From assembly GCA_022447025.1 (NCBI GenBank), contig JAKUUL010000004.1, positions 1 through 47,750 on the forward strand: a DNA stretch of 47,750 nt, in the 5' to 3' direction. Source of the stretch: SAR86 cluster bacterium (GTDB lineage: Bacteria; Pseudomonadota; Gammaproteobacteria; Magnimaribacterales; Magnimaribacteraceae). Position numbers and translations under genes: made by a program. The notes under the pieces are model-generated. The model did not search any database, was not told where the DNA came from, and worked only from the letters and a program-made list of their open reading frames with translations. Positions 5,148-38,557 of this stretch are shown one piece after another. The first letter of the stretch is position 1. Every line of letters starts with the position of its first letter.

Positions 5148-6392
5148 ATGTCTTCTTTGCCGCTATCCATAGCAATTAAATACTTGAAGGGCAAAAGATC
5201 AGGTTTTTTATCTTTTGTATCTTCAGCTGGTTTTGTAGGGGTAGCTCTAGGAGTTGCAGTGTTAATTCTTGTCTCTTCAGTGATGAATGGATTTGAAAAA
5301 GAGTTAAGAGAAAGAGTTCTTCAATCTATCCCTCATGCTTCTATTATTGGAAGCATTGGAATAGACCAGGTTCCTCAAGTTAGAAATATCCTTTTAGAAA
5401 ATAAAGAAATTGTAGCTAGTTCACCTTACATAGAGTCTCAAGGGTTAATTGGGTCTTCCGAGTCACTCAAGGGAATTTATATCTTTGGTGTTAATCCAGA
5501 TTTAGAAAATGAAGTATCAATAGTGGGTAAAAGAATAATTGAAGGTTCATGGAACTCAATAGAAGAAGAAAAATATGGAATAGTCATTGGAGATATATTA
5601 GCTTACCAATTAGGTATAGGCATCGGCGATATGGTTAATGTGCTTTTCCCTGATACAACTCTAAGCTTGGCTGGCATCCTACCTAGAACCAAGAGATTCA
5701 AAGTAACAGGTATTTTTAGTATAGGAGCTCCAGAGATGGACCAATCTTTTGCCTATATCAATATAACTAATGCACAAAAGTTACTTAGACTTGATGATAC
5801 TGTTCATGGAGTTAGGATTAGATATAAAGATCTATTCCAAGCACCTCAAATGGTTCACTTAGATACCATAAGGGTTAATCAGGCTCTTAGCTCATATTAC
5901 TCTTCTGGCAACTGGACCAACAATTATGGGACTCTTTTCAAGGCTATAAACATGGAGAAGTTCTTAGTTTTTCTTTTATTGTCTTTAGTTATTGTGATTG
6001 CTGTTTTTAATATAGTTTCTTTATCGGTTATGACTATTAATGAAAAAAGATCACAAATAGCAATTCTGATGACTATTGGTGCAACACCTTCTTTTGTTCA
6101 AAAGATATTTATGTATTTTGGAAGCTTAATTGGAATAACTGGAACATTACTAGGATTGTTAATTGGCTTAGTCCTTACTTACTTTTTAGGTCCCATTATT
6201 GCTTTTATTGAAAATCTATTAGGAATGAGGTTTTTAGAAGTCTATTTTATTAATTATTTTCCAGTTGATTTAAGAGTAAATTGGATATTGGCTATATGTT
6301 TAATTTCAATACTTTTAACAATTTTAGCAAGCTTATATCCCTCTAGATTAGCGTCTAAGATAAACCCAGCTGAGGTACTTAGATATGAATAA
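5148..6392 (+). CDS. lolC: Lipoprotein-releasing ABC transporter permease, LolC/LolE family
   Basis: Inner-membrane permease of the Lol system, which extracts outer-membrane lipoproteins and hands them to LolA. The 414-residue product has the MacB/FtsX architecture: helix 1 at about 20-47, a large periplasmic domain to about 270, then three C-terminal helices. Family wording includes AIKYLKGKRSGFLSFVS near the N-terminus, LPRTKRFKVTGIFSIGAPEMDQ in the periplasmic domain, and ASLYPSRLASKINPAEVLRYE at the C-terminus. It overlaps lolD by 8 bases. Only one LolC/E-type gene is present and no lolE follows lolD, so the product may work as a homodimer like LolF; the symbol lolC is therefore positional. 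Confidence 0.9.
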   Translation: MSSLPLSIAIKYLKGKRSGFLSFVSSAGFVGVALGVAVLILVSSVMNGFEKELRERVLQSIPHASIIGSIGIDQVPQVRNILLENKEIVASSPYIESQGLIGSSESLKGIYIFGVNPDLENEVSIVGKRIIEGSWNSIEEEKYGIVIGDILAYQLGIGIGDMVNVLFPDTTLSLAGILPRTKRFKVTGIFSIGAPEMDQSFAYINITNAQKLLRLDDTVHGVRIRYKDLFQAPQMVHLDTIRVNQALSSYYSSGNWTNNYGTLFKAINMEKFLVFLLLSLVIVIAVFNIVSLSVMTINEKRSQIAILMTIGATPSFVQKIFMYFGSLIGITGTLLGLLIGLVLTYFLGPIIAFIENLLGMRFLEVYFINYFPVDLRVNWILAICLISILLTILASLYPSRLASKINPAEVLRYE

Positions 6393-7049: not shown

Positions 7050-9881
7050 GTGGAAAGTTCAGATCTTTTAAATAAAACAAAACCTTCTGATTTTAAGATC
7101 TATGGAAGGCTTATTTCCTATGTATTACCTTATTTTCCTCAGTTCTTAATAAGTATTTTAGGTTTTGCAGTTTTTGCAGGTTCACAAGTAGCATTTGCTG
7201 AATGGTTAAAACGTGTTATTGATTACGTAGATAACCCATCTGATGATTTAAGATTGATATGGCCCATATTATTGATTTTAATAGCTCTAATTAGAGGGGT
7301 AAGTTTTTTTGTAGGTAACTACCTTTTATCATCTATCTCTAATAGATTAGTTCATGAATTAAGAACTGATCTCTTCAACAAGATACCAGTTTTACCAAGT
7401 TCTTTTTTTGATACTAGAAGTTCAGGTCATTTAGTTTCTCGAATTACATTTAATGTCATGCAGGTCACTGGAGCTGCAACTAATGCCCTGAAAATTCTTA
7501 TAAGGGAAGGGCTTCTAGTAATTGGACTCGTTACCTATCTAATGCTTTTAAACTTTAAATTAGCTTCTATTTTCTTTATTGCTGCGCCTTTTATAGCTGT
7601 AGTGGTTGCCTACGCAGGAAGGAGATTAAGAAAAATAAGTAATCAAATCCAAACTGCTATGGGAGATGTAACCCATGTAGCATCAGAAACTATAAGTGCT
7701 TATAAAGAGGTAAAGGCTTTTGGAGGTGAAGAATATGAAGTTAATAGGTTCTTTAGAGCTAGTGATAATAATAGGATGCAAAATCTTAAACTTGAGGCTA
7801 CTAATGCACTTGCTTCTCCTTTAATCCAGTTTTTAGTTTCAGCTGCATTGGCGTTGATAACTTGGCTAGCCCTTGATCCTACTGTTTTGGACACCATGAG
7901 CCCTGGTGGTTTTGTGGCATTCTTTGGAGCAGCAGGTATGTTAGCCAAACCAGTCAGGCAGCTTTCAGAAATAAATAGTCAAATTCAGAAAGGACTAGCT
8001 GCAGCTAGTGATATTTTTGAACAACTTGATGAAGAACCAGAAAAAAATGAAGGCACTTTTGAGAATGATAAGATTGAAGGACTCATAGAATTTAAAGATT
8101 TATCGTTTTCATATAACTTTAATTCTTCAGAAGTTCTTAAAAATATTAATCTTATTATTAGCCCAGGAGAGACAGTAGCTTTTGTAGGTAAATCTGGAGC
8201 TGGTAAAACAACTTTGGTTAGTCTTATCCCTAGATTCTATGGAGATTTTACTGGTAATTTAACTATTGATGGAATAGATCTAGAGGAATATGAAATTAAT
8301 AATCTTAGATCACACATTTCATTAGTTGGACAGAATATTACTTTGTTTAATGACACCATAAATAAAAATATAAGTTACGGATCTATAAGTGAAGATTTTG
8401 ATTTAATACAATCAGCTTCAAAGAAAGCTCATGCAGATGAATTTATTAAAGCTTTACCTGATGGGTATGAGACTGTAGTAGGTGATGATGGTGTTTTATT
8501 ATCTGGCGGTCAAAGACAAAGAATAGCTATAGCAAGAGCTATATTAAAAGACTCGCCCATCTTAATTCTTGATGAAGCCACATCTGCTTTAGATTCAGAA
8601 TCAGAAGAATATATTCAAGATGCAATGTCCGAACTAACTAAAGGCCGTACTACTTTAGTTGTGGCTCATAGATTATCTACCATTGAAAGTGCAGATAAGA
8701 TTGTGGTGCTCGACGAAGGAAAGATAGTAGAGCATGGAACACATAAGGAGCTTCTAAAGAAAGGGAAACATTATGCAAATCTGCATGCTAAACAGTTCAA
8801 AGATGACTCAGTTCCTCAAGAAGCGAGGGCGATTAAAGAATTTGAAGACTATGATTTATCTAGCTTACCTCCTTCAAAAGACCATACGCCTTACCTTGAA
8901 AAAGCTTGGTATAAAAAAAGTCTTTGGCTATGGTTTCTCTGGCCTTTTTCTTTAATTACAAAACAAATTTCTAAAAGAAGGTTAACTAAATTCTTAGAAG
9001 GAAGTACGAAAACTTGGAGTACTAATATTCCACTTATTGTAGTTGGCAACATAGTGGCAGGTGGAACAGGTAAAACACCTTTTGTAATCTGGCTAACTAA
9101 GAAACTATCTGAATTGGGTTATAAACCAGGTGTTATAAGTAGAGGGTATGGCGGCAGGGCAAAAAAATATCCCTTAATTGTCAATGATTCAACAAGAGCT
9201 AGGATATCTGGAGATGAACCAAGGTTAATCTTTCAAAATACAAATGTACCGGTATACGTTTCTCCCAACAGAGTAGAAGCAGCAAAACAAATGATAGAAG
9301 AGACGGATTGTAATGTAATTATTAGTGATGATGGACTTCAACATTATCAACTTGGAAGAGATATAGAAATTGTTATCTTTGATGGCTACAGAGGAATTGG
9401 AAATAACTTATGTTTGCCAGCTGGTCCTCTAAGAGAACCAATAGAAAGAATTAAGTCAGTCGACTTTATTATAAGTTCCAGTAGTTCTTTAACTAAAGAA
9501 GGTATAGCAGAAAATGCCATTATGAAATTTAAAGCAACAGAATGGGTCAGACTCTCAGATCAGAAAAGAGTAGCTTTAGATGCCTGGCCACTAGGTAAAA
9601 TAATTCATGGTGTAGCAGGTATAGGTAATCCCTCCAAATTTTTTGCAACTTTAAAAGAAATTGGTTTTAAAGTTATAGAGCATTCATTTCCTGACCATTA
9701 TCAATTTACAGAAGAAGATTTCACTTTTTCAGAGCAGCTTCCTATAGTGATGACAGAGAAAGACGCAGCACGATGTCATAAAATAGATATAAAAAATATC
9801 TGGGTTTTAAAAATAGAGGCAGATTTACCAGATAATTTTGCTCTTGAATTAATAAATAAAATCAAAGAAGAAGATGAGTAA
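7050..9881 (+). CDS. msbA-lpxK: MsbA-LpxK fusion: lipid A flippase joined to tetraacyldisaccharide 4'-kinase
   Basis: One open frame of 943 codons joins two consecutive lipid A steps. Residues 1-582 are a complete MsbA half-transporter: six helices, then Walker [11 protein letters not shown] (379-388), signature [15 protein letters not shown] (484-498) and Walker [13 protein letters not shown]. After a charged linker (about 583-611) come residues 612-943, a full-length LpxK: an N-terminal aromatic membrane anchor near 624-637, P-loop AGGTGKTP (670-677), [15 protein letters not shown] (760-768) and MTEKDAARC. LpxK phosphorylates the lipid A 4' position and MsbA flips the product. Topology agrees, since both the MsbA C-terminus and LpxK face the cytoplasm. 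The start is GTG after AGGTAAAG. No stop or in-frame ATG lies at the junction, so separate translation is unlikely. It overlaps the next gene by 8 bases. Confidence 0.93.
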
Positions 9882-10059
9882 AATTGATCCTAAGTTAATG
9901 GAAATTCTTGTTTGTCCTGTTTCAAAAAAAGCTTTAGTACAAAAAGAGAGTGAGTTGGTTTGTTATGAAAGTGAGTTGGCTTATCCAATAAGAGATGGTA
10001 TCCCAATAATGCTGCCTGAAGAGGCAAGAAAGCTAGAGAAACATGAATTAAAAGAATAA
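9874..10059 (+). CDS. ycaR: Trm112 family protein (YcaR/UPF0434)
   Basis: A 61-residue protein of the Trm112-like family, a small zinc-ribbon-like fold. Visible motifs are [14 protein letters not shown] (Cys14) and [20 protein letters not shown] (Cys30), which fit YcaR from end to end. The first Cys pair reads CPVS rather than CPVC, so four-Cys zinc binding is not retained; my recollection is that many proteobacterial members vary here. Eukaryotic Trm112 activates methyltransferases; the bacterial function is not established. It sits between lpxK and kdsB as in E. coli and Pseudomonas, overlapping the former by 8 bases and the latter by one (TAATG). Confidence 0.9.
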
Positions 10060-12423: not shown

Positions 12424-12993
12424 ATGAATACAACTAATCCTGCTTCCATACTTAAACAAATTTCAAAGTATAAAGGTGAGAATTTACCTCCTGTCCATTT
12501 ATGGAATCCGCCGCTGTGTGAGAATGTAGAAATGCGTATTGACAGAGAGGGAAGGTGGTTTTTCATGAACTCTCCTATAGGGAGAAAAAGGATGGTAAAA
12601 CTTTTTAGTAAAGTTTTAAGACTCGATGATGATGGTGAATACTATCTAGTAACCCCAGTGGAAAAGATTAGAATTGAGGTAGAAGAAAGGCCTTTTTTAA
12701 TTATTGATTATCAATTAATAACAAAAAATAAACGACAATTAATAAGTTTTGAGACAAATACAGGTGACATGTTCTTGTTAGACAAAGAACATCCCATCAA
12801 AGTATCTACAAATCCTAAAACAGGCGAACCAAAACCATGTGTACTTGTTAGGTCAAATCTAGAAGGAATAATATCTAGAAATATCTACTATAAGTTAGTA
12901 GAGCTATCTGATATTAAGAAAGAGAACGGCGAGAATATTTTTCTATTAAAAAGTAATAATCAAACTTTTGAAATAGGACGTCTAAAAATTTAA
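12424..12993 (+). CDS. DUF1285 family protein
   Basis: A 189-residue protein with the DUF1285 pattern: PPVHLWNPPLCENVEMRIDREGRWFFMNSPIGR at its start, FSKVLRLDDDGEYYLVTPVEKIRIEVEERPF in the middle, and a basic/acidic C-terminus. No signal peptide or transmembrane segment is seen, so it is probably cytoplasmic. Homologues occur widely in proteobacteria without an established role, and I assign none. It is the last gene of the plus-strand run. A hairpin 19 bases after the stop (13012-13037) could end the transcript although its downstream T-run on this strand is short. Confidence 0.8.
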   Translation: MNTTNPASILKQISKYKGENLPPVHLWNPPLCENVEMRIDREGRWFFMNSPIGRKRMVKLFSKVLRLDDDGEYYLVTPVEKIRIEVEERPFLIIDYQLITKNKRQLISFETNTGDMFLLDKEHPIKVSTNPKTGEPKPCVLVRSNLEGIISRNIYYKLVELSDIKKENGENIFLLKSNNQTFEIGRLKI

Positions 12994-13011
12994 TTTATTT
13001 ACTTTAGACAT

Positions 13012-13037
13012 AAAAAAACAGAGCCGAGGCTCTGTTT
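13012..13037 (-). terminator. Strong intrinsic terminator (minus strand), possibly bidirectional
   Basis: A perfect 9-bp stem, AAACAGAGC (13016-13024) with GCTCTGTTT (13029-13037), closes on a CGAG loop. On the minus strand it runs straight into seven U (13018-13012), a textbook Rho-independent terminator. On the plus strand only TTT follows, but the hairpin lies 19 bases after the DUF1285 stop, so it may also limit that operon. Confidence 0.85.
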
Positions 13038-13115
13038 AGTTCGAGTTCGAAAGTGTCTAAGTTTGAGTCTTTTTTCTTAGCTTCCTTGATAAATTTCTCT
13101 TTTTATCTTGGTGGT

Positions 13116-13175
13116 CTAAAAGTTTTTTTTGCTAGCTTTACTTTTAGAGCTTTTCGCCTTTCGTTCTCTAACCAA
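13116..13175 (-). CDS. Possible 19-residue basic peptide inside the small RNA candidate
   Basis: A TTG at 13175-13173 follows AAGGAG (13188-13183) with an ideal 7-base gap and opens a frame of 19 codons ending in TAG at 13118-13116. The peptide, MVRERKAKSSKSKASKKNF, is very rich in Lys, Arg and Ser. The start codon lies inside helix 1 and would be masked when the helix forms. The frame could be extended upstream with only non-standard starts. This may be chance in a purine-rich RNA, or the remnant of a small basic protein. Confidence 0.2.
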   Translation of the reverse strand: MVRERKAKSSKSKASKKNF

Positions 13176-13232
13176 TTTTTCTCTCCTTTTCTCGTCTCGA
13201 GTTGGTTCCAGGTCGGTTAAATTGGTCTAGTG

Positions 13233-13260
13233 ATATTACTCTTATAGGAAAAAAATACAA
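13233..13260 (-). promoter_or_regulatory. Putative sigma-70 promoter of the small RNA candidate
   Basis: On the minus strand TTGTAT (13260-13255) and TAATAT (13238-13233) are separated by 16 bases; each matches four of six consensus bases. The predicted start at about 13227 coincides with the first base of helix 1 of the RNA candidate. A TATAAG lies between the two and could be an alternative -10 element. Confidence 0.4.
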
Positions 13261-13327
13261 CCCTTTTTTTAACTTTTTTTTAGGTTATTTTTGACCCGTT
13301 TTTTTACCTAAAATTTCCTTATATCTA

Positions 13328-14968
13328 CTACATATTAGGATAGTTTGGACCACCGGTTCCTTCGGGAGTTACCCAAATAATATTTTGAGCTGGGTCTTTA
13401 ATATCGCAAGTCTTACAGTGCACACAGTTTTGTGCATTTATTTGAAATATTTTTTTGCCTTCTTCTTCGATAACTTCATACACTCCTGCAGGACAATATC
13501 TTTGAGCTGGCTCATCATATAGAGGAAGATTTTGTTCTATTGGTATTGATTCATCTTTTAATATGAGATGACAGGGTTGGTCTTCAGCATGGTTTGTATT
13601 AGACAGGAAAACTGATGAGAGTTTATCAAAAGAAATAACACCATCTGGTTTTGGGTACGAAATTTTTGACATCTTATTTGCTTCTTTTAGACAAGCATGA
13701 TCAGGTTCTGGTGCTCTCAATGTAAACGGTAATTTTCCTCTAAAAATGAACTGATCAATGCCTGCTAACAGAACACCTAGATAAGGTCCAAATTTATGTA
13801 GAAAAGGATTCCAGTTTCTTGCTTTATAGAGTTCACTATTTATCCATGAAGAAGTAAATCTCTCTTCGTATTCCTCAAGATCAACTTTACTACTTTGAAT
13901 TGAATTAAAAATAGTTTCTGCCGCTATCATTCCTGATTTCATAGCGGTGTGTGTTCCCTTAATTCTAGGAAAATTTAGAGTTCCTGCATTATCCCCAATT
14001 AATAATCCACCTGGAAAATTCATTTTAGGTCTAGATTGAAGTCCTCCTTTAATTAAAGCTCTAGCCCCGTAGGAAACTCTTTTGCCTTCTTTTAAGTATT
14101 TACTTATTGAAGACTGATGTTTCCACTGTTGAAATTCATCATAAGGACTTAGGTGAGGGTTCTCATAATCTAAAGGAACGACATATCCTATGTAAGCCTG
14201 GTTATTCTCACCATGATAGAAGTAAGAACCTGATACAGTTCCTTTGGATGGCCATCCTAGAGTATGTATAACTAATCCTTCCTCATGCAGTTCGGGTTTT
14301 AGGTCCCAAACCTCTTTAAATCCAATACCATAGTGTTGAGGATCTTTACCCTCATCAAGCTTATATTTATTTATTATTTCCTTACCTAAATGACCTCTGC
14401 AGCCTTCTGCTAACACAGTAAATTTAGCTCTAAGTTCAACCCCTGGTTCATACCCAGGTTTTTTTTCACCTTCAGAATCTATACCCATATCTCCAGTGAT
14501 AACTCCTATAACTCTGTCATTTTCATAAATTATTTCGGAAGCAGGGAACCCTGCAAAGATATCTATTTCTAAGCTTTCTGCGTATTCCGCTAACCAACGG
14601 CATAGATTTCCTAAGCTAATAATATAATTTCCATGGTTTTTAAATGTTGGAACTAACATAAGAGGAGCAGGAATGGTGAGAGATTCACTAAGTAAATATC
14701 TAACTGAATCTTGATTAACTTCAGTTTTTAATGGAGCGCCTTTTTCTTTCCAATCTGGAATAAGTTCGTTTAAGGCTTTTGGGTCTATAACATTACCAGA
14801 AAGTATATGGGCTCCAACCTCTGATCCTTTTTCTACTATGCAAATAGATATTTCAGATTGATTCTCTGTAGCCATCTGTTTCAGTTTAATGGCAGCAGAA
14901 AGCCCAGAAGGACCAGCACCCACAATAATCACATCATATTCCATAGATTCTCTTTGTATTTCTTCCAT
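13328..14968 (-). CDS. Electron transfer flavoprotein-ubiquinone oxidoreductase
   Basis: Membrane-associated FAD/4Fe-4S protein that passes electrons from reduced ETF to the quinone pool. The 546-residue product has the N-terminal FAD motif VIIVGAGPSGLSAAIKL (about 14-30), a central quinone/FAD domain with GLLIGDNAGTLNFPRIKGTH, and a C-terminal ferredoxin-like cluster: RYCPAGVYE, then CVHCKTCDIKDP, giving the four Cys ligands. Length equals the usual 540-560. It is divergent from etfBA across 82 bases, so a shared control region is likely. An internal Met9 is an alternative start, just before the FAD motif. Its substrates upstream would include the two acyl-CoA dehydrogenases at 27548-29868. 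Confidence 0.95.
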   Translation of the reverse strand: MEEIQRESMEYDVIIVGAGPSGLSAAIKLKQMATENQSEISICIVEKGSEVGAHILSGNVIDPKALNELIPDWKEKGAPLKTEVNQDSVRYLLSESLTIPAPLMLVPTFKNHGNYIISLGNLCRWLAEYAESLEIDIFAGFPASEIIYENDRVIGVITGDMGIDSEGEKKPGYEPGVELRAKFTVLAEGCRGHLGKEIINKYKLDEGKDPQHYGIGFKEVWDLKPELHEEGLVIHTLGWPSKGTVSGSYFYHGENNQAYIGYVVPLDYENPHLSPYDEFQQWKHQSSISKYLKEGKRVSYGARALIKGGLQSRPKMNFPGGLLIGDNAGTLNFPRIKGTHTAMKSGMIAAETIFNSIQSSKVDLEEYEERFTSSWINSELYKARNWNPFLHKFGPYLGVLLAGIDQFIFRGKLPFTLRAPEPDHACLKEANKMSKISYPKPDGVISFDKLSSVFLSNTNHAEDQPCHLILKDESIPIEQNLPLYDEPAQRYCPAGVYEVIEEEGKKIFQINAQNCVHCKTCDIKDPAQNIIWVTPEGTGGPNYPNM

Positions 14969-38351: not shown

Positions 38352-38370
38352 TCGGTATTAAAATTAAGAA

Positions 38371-38541
38371 ATGAGTACTATTTTCACTAGTTTTATTGTT
38401 CTTTTATTAATATTTTTTGCCATGTCAATCGGGGTCATATTTGGAAGAAAACCTATTGCAGGGTCTTGTGGCGGACTCAAGACTATGGGAGAAGTAGCAG
38501 ATTGTGAGATTTGTGGGGGAGATCCAGCTAAGTGTAAATAA
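38371..38541 (+). CDS. nqrM: Na+-NQR maturation protein NqrM
   Basis: A 56-codon gene. The product MSTIFTSFIVLLLIFFAMSI continues GVIFGRKPIAGSCGGLK, then GEVADCEICGGDPAKCK. One N-terminal helix plus four Cys (33, 45, 48, 55) is the NqrM (former DUF539) pattern. NqrM is needed to deliver or hold Fe for the NqrD/E centre in Vibrio. It sits last in the nqr cluster, 19 bases after apbE, and ends 16 bases before the convergent aceA stop. Small and easily missed, but the four-Cys layout and context make it secure. Confidence 0.92.
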   Translation: MSTIFTSFIVLLLIFFAMSIGVIFGRKPIAGSCGGLKTMGEVADCEICGGDPAKCK

Positions 38542-38557
38542 AAAAATTTATCTATAT

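Follow-up and report, generated by a model that had tools for sequence, protein, structure and literature searches.

The window analyzed here, the whole 47,750-nucleotide (nt) stretch of contig JAKUUL010000004.1 from a SAR86 cluster bacterium, has its largest interval without an open reading frame (ORF) at positions 12994 to 13327, when ORFs of at least 100 amino acids are counted as coding. This 334-nt interval lies between a gene that ends at 12993 and the gene for ETF-QO, which occupies 13328 to 14968 on the minus strand. The original prediction had described these noncoding bases as the only large gap in the window, and their extent holds up: they form the largest of three uncovered stretches longer than 120 nt, the others measuring 206 nt (38352 to 38557) and 177 nt (9882 to 10058, with a 61-amino-acid ORF inside). 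Elsewhere in the window, 7050 to 9881 form a single 943-amino-acid frame in which, from its sequence alone, an MsbA-type lipid A flippase seems to be fused with tetraacyldisaccharide 4'-kinase (LpxK).

The minus strand of the gap is more stable than shuffled sequences (z = -3.33; 0 of 200 shuffles), and an Rfam scan of the whole window returned one match only, to IMES-1 (RF02034) at 13031 to 13222 on that strand. An autonomous, structured minus-strand small RNA of no recognized family had been proposed for this site. The RNA itself is supported, with a predicted transcript of ~216 nt, its own promoter and terminator, covariation, and differing neighbors among its relatives. The family, by contrast, is a known one, as the match reaches 123.7 bits against a gathering threshold of 81. 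Judged by sequence, the gap holds a free-standing gene for a small RNA of IMES-1, a marine family that had already been catalogued. The features below include structural assignments that are all computational; f1 to f4 are the search tool's own codes for families, f1 being that of the window.

13255 to 13260, minus strand: -35 hexamer TTGTAT, which lines up with the TTGACA of relatives
13233 to 13238, minus strand: -10 hexamer TAATAT, conserved in position, spacer of 16
13012 to 13227, minus strand: predicted primary transcript, ~216 nt, both ends predicted from promoter spacing and terminator
13031 to 13222, minus strand: IMES-1 RNA, RF02034 model positions 1 to 191 (cmscan, E = 2.7e-26)
13170 to 13227, minus strand: P1 domain, 13227-13219 with 13178-13170 (9 bp), with compensatory changes and the apical domain-I loop inside
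13196 to 13201, minus strand: domain-I loop palindrome CUCGAG (CUGCAG in f2 and f4), from sequence comparison
13048 to 13163, minus strand: P2, the helix that closes the multibranch domain and pairs 13163-13158 with 13053-13048 (transcript minimum free energy [MFE] fold and Rfam structure)
13115 to 13148, minus strand: P3 hairpin, 13148-13140 with 13123-13115 (9 bp); both partners vary in 9 of 10 alignment pairs
13131 to 13136, minus strand: P3-loop hexamer GCUAGC, candidate kissing-dimer site, with an unpaired probability of ~0.97 to 1.0 in the predicted fold
13088 to 13107, minus strand: P4 hairpin, 13107-13102 with 13093-13088 (6 bp; alignment and sequence)
13097 to 13099, minus strand: GAG of the P4 loop, complementary to CUC in the P5 loop (72 of 73 distinct sequences allow GAG/CUC or a longer pairing)
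13057 to 13080, minus strand: P5 hairpin, 13080-13076 with 13061-13057 (Rfam structure and MFE fold)
13065 to 13067, minus strand: P5-loop CUC, which could pair with the P4-loop GAG (pairing compared in the 73 distinct sequences)
13012 to 13037, minus strand: intrinsic terminator, 9-bp stem (13037-13016) plus seven U, kept in 45 of 45 aligned copies

The alignment to RF02034 is full length, with all consensus helices present and few nonstandard pairs. The window copy shares the helices and conserved unpaired stretches of the family and does not differ from it in kind, although it comes from a divergent branch, with 123.7 bits versus ~200 for the best copies. The founding report is said to have placed IMES-1 among the most abundant RNAs of ocean bacterial communities. 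A literature search, which did not extend to the founding papers (among them Weinberg 2009), found no paper that names the IMES-1 RNA. We likewise know of no published analysis of its host range or palindromes.

Both the -35/-10 pair and the 9-bp terminator with seven U had been called correctly from the single sequence. The TTGTAT/TAATAT pair falls below the cut of a consensus promoter scanner and so is absent from its list; the case for a promoter is made by conservation across copies, the single sequence by itself being weak. Among 77 aligned copies, most have TTGACA or a near variant together with a TA-rich -10 element at equal distance, and the putative IMES-1 promoter is conserved and strong-looking. 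The 35 bases upstream are 84% A+T, versus 66% for the window. The terminator stem carries an A-U to U-A swap in f4.

The helices of the original prediction are all present where it drew them, including the G-U pair that begins helix 1. Its helices 1 and 2 correspond to P1 and P3, and its hairpin to P4; P2, P5, and the two palindromic loops had been overlooked. Absence of covariation in relatives had been named as grounds for rejecting the RNA, and compensatory change is present. In 45 nonidentical copies from relatives, 94.6% of paired cells can pair, versus 71.1% in shuffles, and in 24 of 35 pairs each of the two partners has changed at least once. The covariation score for these copies is 0.599, versus 0.177 in the control and at most 0.131 with partners slid, the latter control being flattered because the structure was derived from the same alignment. 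The close relatives L105 and L106 have two A-A mismatches in the middle of helix 1. The one sequence of 73 that lacks the usual contact between the P4 and P5 loops has a covarying GAAGA/UCUUC pairing in its place. Two further candidates were rejected by eye: a GGGUG/CACC pairing around P3, where CACC is invariant and GGUG varies, and a Shine-Dalgarno mimic in CAAGGAG, whose last bases vary.

The hosts are marine bacteria of the window's order, SAR86, in which 91 of 151 genomes have an IMES-1 match. Among genomes at least 90% complete, IMES-1 occurs in 17 of 19 from f2, 4 of 4 from f4, 3 of 4 from f1, and 0 of 13 from f3 (counted by hand, with a few matches below the family cutoff excluded). 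A 369-genome sample of the class gave IMES-1 matches from this order only, and a core-motif scan of named genomes returned almost exclusively records of the SAR86 cluster, the few other names being generic or probably mislabeled. IMES-1 is thus restricted to SAR86 in the samples searched. When two weak IMES-1 matches, at G149:C1 and G001:C5, were scanned separately, neither attained an E value of 0.05. IMES-1 is present in two or three copies in several genomes, and some f2 genomes carry tandem or nearby duplicates a few hundred to ~1,200 bases apart (L010, L019, L058, and L075).

In the window and most of f1, IMES-1 follows ETF-QO closely, and both are on one strand. The copies of f4 stand beside different genes, one with a product beginning MKIFYLGPEGTNSDLA, and in several f2 genomes IMES-1 has a gene nearby with FTRTKIICTIGP in its product; apart from the genes matched to the window, these neighbors were identified from sequence starts only. 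Extra copies within f1 also adjoin other genes and have the same promoter. Across three SAR86 families, the promoter, the RNA, and the terminator stay associated although the loci differ. A tie to the ETF-QO gene, which would have reduced the RNA to part of that transcript, was looked for in the f2 and f4 flanks; these differ, and no tie was found. In one same-genus genome, an IMES-1 copy abuts an apparently truncated ETF-QO frame (L105, ~6200 to 6300), through insertion, recombination, or misassembly.

IMES-1 sequence stands at the end of three short IMG/VR contigs that carry phage structural genes (L102, 1926 to 2009; L103, 1 to 143; L104, 1877 to 2060). A phage origin was considered and rejected. 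These contigs are probably chimeric assemblies with an abundant RNA, because IMES-1 sits at contig ends, the point in the RNA where phage DNA joins it differs each time, and a comparison with phage records gave no match.

The apical loop of P3 holds a hexamer that is self-complementary, with G-U pairs allowed, in all 99 distinct RNAs (97 by extraction, partly with patterns favoring an initial G and a final C or U; the other two, both GCUAGC, by eye in the same output). About ten versions occur: GCUAGC, GGUACC, GUCGAC, GCAUGC, GCCGGC, GUUAAC, GUUGAC, GUCGGC, GUCGAU, and GUGCAU. Of these, f1 has GCUAGC, GGUACC, GUUAAC, and GUUGAC; f2 has GUCGAC, GUCGAU, GUCGGC, GUUAAC, GUGCAU, and GUUGAC; and f4 has GCAUGC, GCUAGC, GUCGAC, and GCCGGC, the last of which overlaps GCUAGC in L125. 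Position-fixed windows, which are free of pattern bias, are self-complementary in 98% of f2 and 100% of f4 sequences, against a background of 3.5 to 3.8% averaged over all offsets. When the columns of the ten versions were shuffled, a mean of 3.6 stayed self-complementary, with a maximum of 8 in 5,000 trials. At least 17 version changes are required on a tree built without the hexamer columns. The versions with G-U pairs resemble the intermediates through which compensatory change usually passes, and some hexamers are weak, such as GUUGAC at -2.6 kcal/mol.

Adjacent bases within one RNA chain are sterically unable to pair. Because neighboring bases of the hexamer cannot pair within their own chain, the covariation of the P3 loop indicates pairing between two molecules and suggests a kissing IMES-1 homodimer. 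The same steric argument for intermolecular pairing has been made for OLE and GOLLD, in which symmetric loops were seen by cryo-electron microscopy (cryo-EM) (PMC12286853).

A second palindrome lies in the domain-I loop, as CUCGAG in 27 sequences of f1 and as CUGCAG in 72 of f2 and f4. The two differ by a single switch on the tree, of the central CG to GC, and for this reason the loop is only suggestive as a possible second dimer contact. Half of the CUCGAG palindrome of the window is predicted to pair locally.

Family f3, the sole SAR86 family without IMES-1, has loci that score weakly with the IMES-1 model (31 to 35 bits) and prove to be IMES-5 (RF02995; 124 to 129 bits). IMES-5 was found in f1 and f3 only. 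The two RNAs often share a contig in f1, ~13 to 14 kb apart on opposite strands (e.g., G003:C5 and G008:C1). Neither the window nor its genome, which is 74% complete, has an IMES-5 match; the expected place would fall just beyond the contig start. Like IMES-1, IMES-5 has a domain-I hairpin with a AACUCGAGAC loop, the closing helix GAAGGG/CCCUUC, GGGUGA, CCACC, and a pairing between the P4 and P5 loops. It differs in being shorter and in P3, a smaller hairpin with a GAAA-type loop in the consensus and without the palindrome. The P4-P5 pair is GGGU/ACCC in IMES-5, with AGGU/ACCU also found, versus GAGA/UCUC in IMES-1. The CUCGAG loop is present in 44 of 45 IMES-5 loci examined (43 counted and L177 by eye), L201 being different. 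Rfam lists no clan for either family, and from these sequences IMES-1 and IMES-5 look homologous by duplication, with one or the other lost in some families.

Several other readings of the RNA were weighed. One takes it for a merely processed 3' untranslated region of ETF-QO, or for its terminator, as the arrangement in the window and most of f1 would allow; since promoter, RNA, and terminator move as a unit amid differing neighbors in f2, f4, and the extra f1 copies, we regard this as highly improbable. We give next to no credence to a derived 6S RNA or a replacement for it. The 6S RNA resembles IMES-1 as a ~190-nt bacterial RNA with its own promoter, and none was found in the window's own incomplete genome, but it has a different fold, 77 of 81 SAR86 genomes have a separate 6S RNA, which refutes replacement for the order, and the 6S model (RF00013) has no match at the window locus. 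A twofold-symmetric reader would also suit a palindromic loop, so that a dimeric RNA-binding protein rather than a second RNA might recognize it. Such a protein would hardly tolerate some ten versions of its site with self-complementarity kept throughout, and we think it quite unlikely.

The long conserved unpaired stretches and the Rho-independent terminator with its U run would be compatible with a trans-acting antisense RNA that pairs with mRNAs, the palindromes being incidental or aiding turnover. Neither Hfq nor ProQ, on which such small RNAs may depend, was detected with Pfam models in any of 61 SAR86 genomes (Escherichia coli controls were positive), and structure is constrained over nearly the full length, unlike in typical seed-type small RNAs. 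We consider antisense action doubtful. A CsrA sponge, functionally like CsrB/RsmZ, is very unlikely. IMES-1 does have GGA motifs, and CsrA was found in f1 and f3, exactly the two families with IMES-5; there are only a few of these motifs, however, some are not conserved, and the coincidence with IMES-5 may be one evolutionary event. A sponge should be accompanied by CsrA wherever it is kept, yet no sampled genome of f2 or f4 has CsrA, and both families retain IMES-1. Given the separate 6S RNA, the undetected Hfq and ProQ, and the missing CsrA, IMES-1 does without all of these in at least f2 and f4.

On balance, we hold it probable that IMES-1 is an independently transcribed, structured, trans-acting RNA that forms a homodimer through kissing P3 loops and may serve as a scaffold for a partner. 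The P3-loop hexamers of two molecules would kiss to give a symmetric homodimer, as the covariation supports; the CUCGAG/CUGCAG loop may add a second contact, and within each molecule the P4 and P5 loops would pair. We infer further that the dimer, as a folded scaffold, could hold or sequester a protein or ribonucleoprotein, contacted through the conserved unpaired stretches CCACCAAG, CAAGG, and GGGUGAAAG. Such a mode would be closer to that of OLE or 6S RNA than to Hfq-aided antisense pairing. A folded, probably dimeric scaffold is the most likely reading of the sequences, and its partner is conjecture. More tentatively, IMES-1 and IMES-5 might constitute one SAR86-specific superfamily (~150 to 215 nt) whose self-complementary kissing loops, of which each IMES-1 chain would have two kinds, build closed dimers, rings, or filaments as small RNA-only complexes; in f1, the shared CUCGAG loop could join IMES-1 to IMES-5.

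Parallels are found in much larger RNAs. OLE, GOLLD, and ROOL are homo-oligomeric RNAs solved by cryo-EM, and OLE and GOLLD have symmetric kissing loops with covarying palindromes (OLE L9.3, GGCC/GAUC/AGCU; GOLLD L21a, GC/CG) (PMC12286853). IMES-1 shares with them, as far as sequence can tell, a palindromic loop that covaries with itself, and the Rfam scan of the window gave no OLE, GOLLD, or ROOL match. Hexanucleotide loop palindromes also initiate retroviral RNA dimers, and there too the palindrome sits in an apical loop, with a few tolerated versions and flanking purines (PMC5874298). That site belongs to a viral genomic RNA, and the analogy is one of mechanism only. As far as we have checked, the self-complementary P3 hexamer in every distinct RNA is new, as is the apparent homology of IMES-1 to IMES-5 with a common CUCGAG loop and P4-P5 pairing.

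Taken together, the SAR86 host, retention without detectable Hfq or ProQ (and, in two families, CsrA), the link to IMES-5, and a predicted dimer interface make an unexplained RNA testable. If IMES-1 does dimerize, conserved RNA homo-oligomers would not be confined to very large RNAs.
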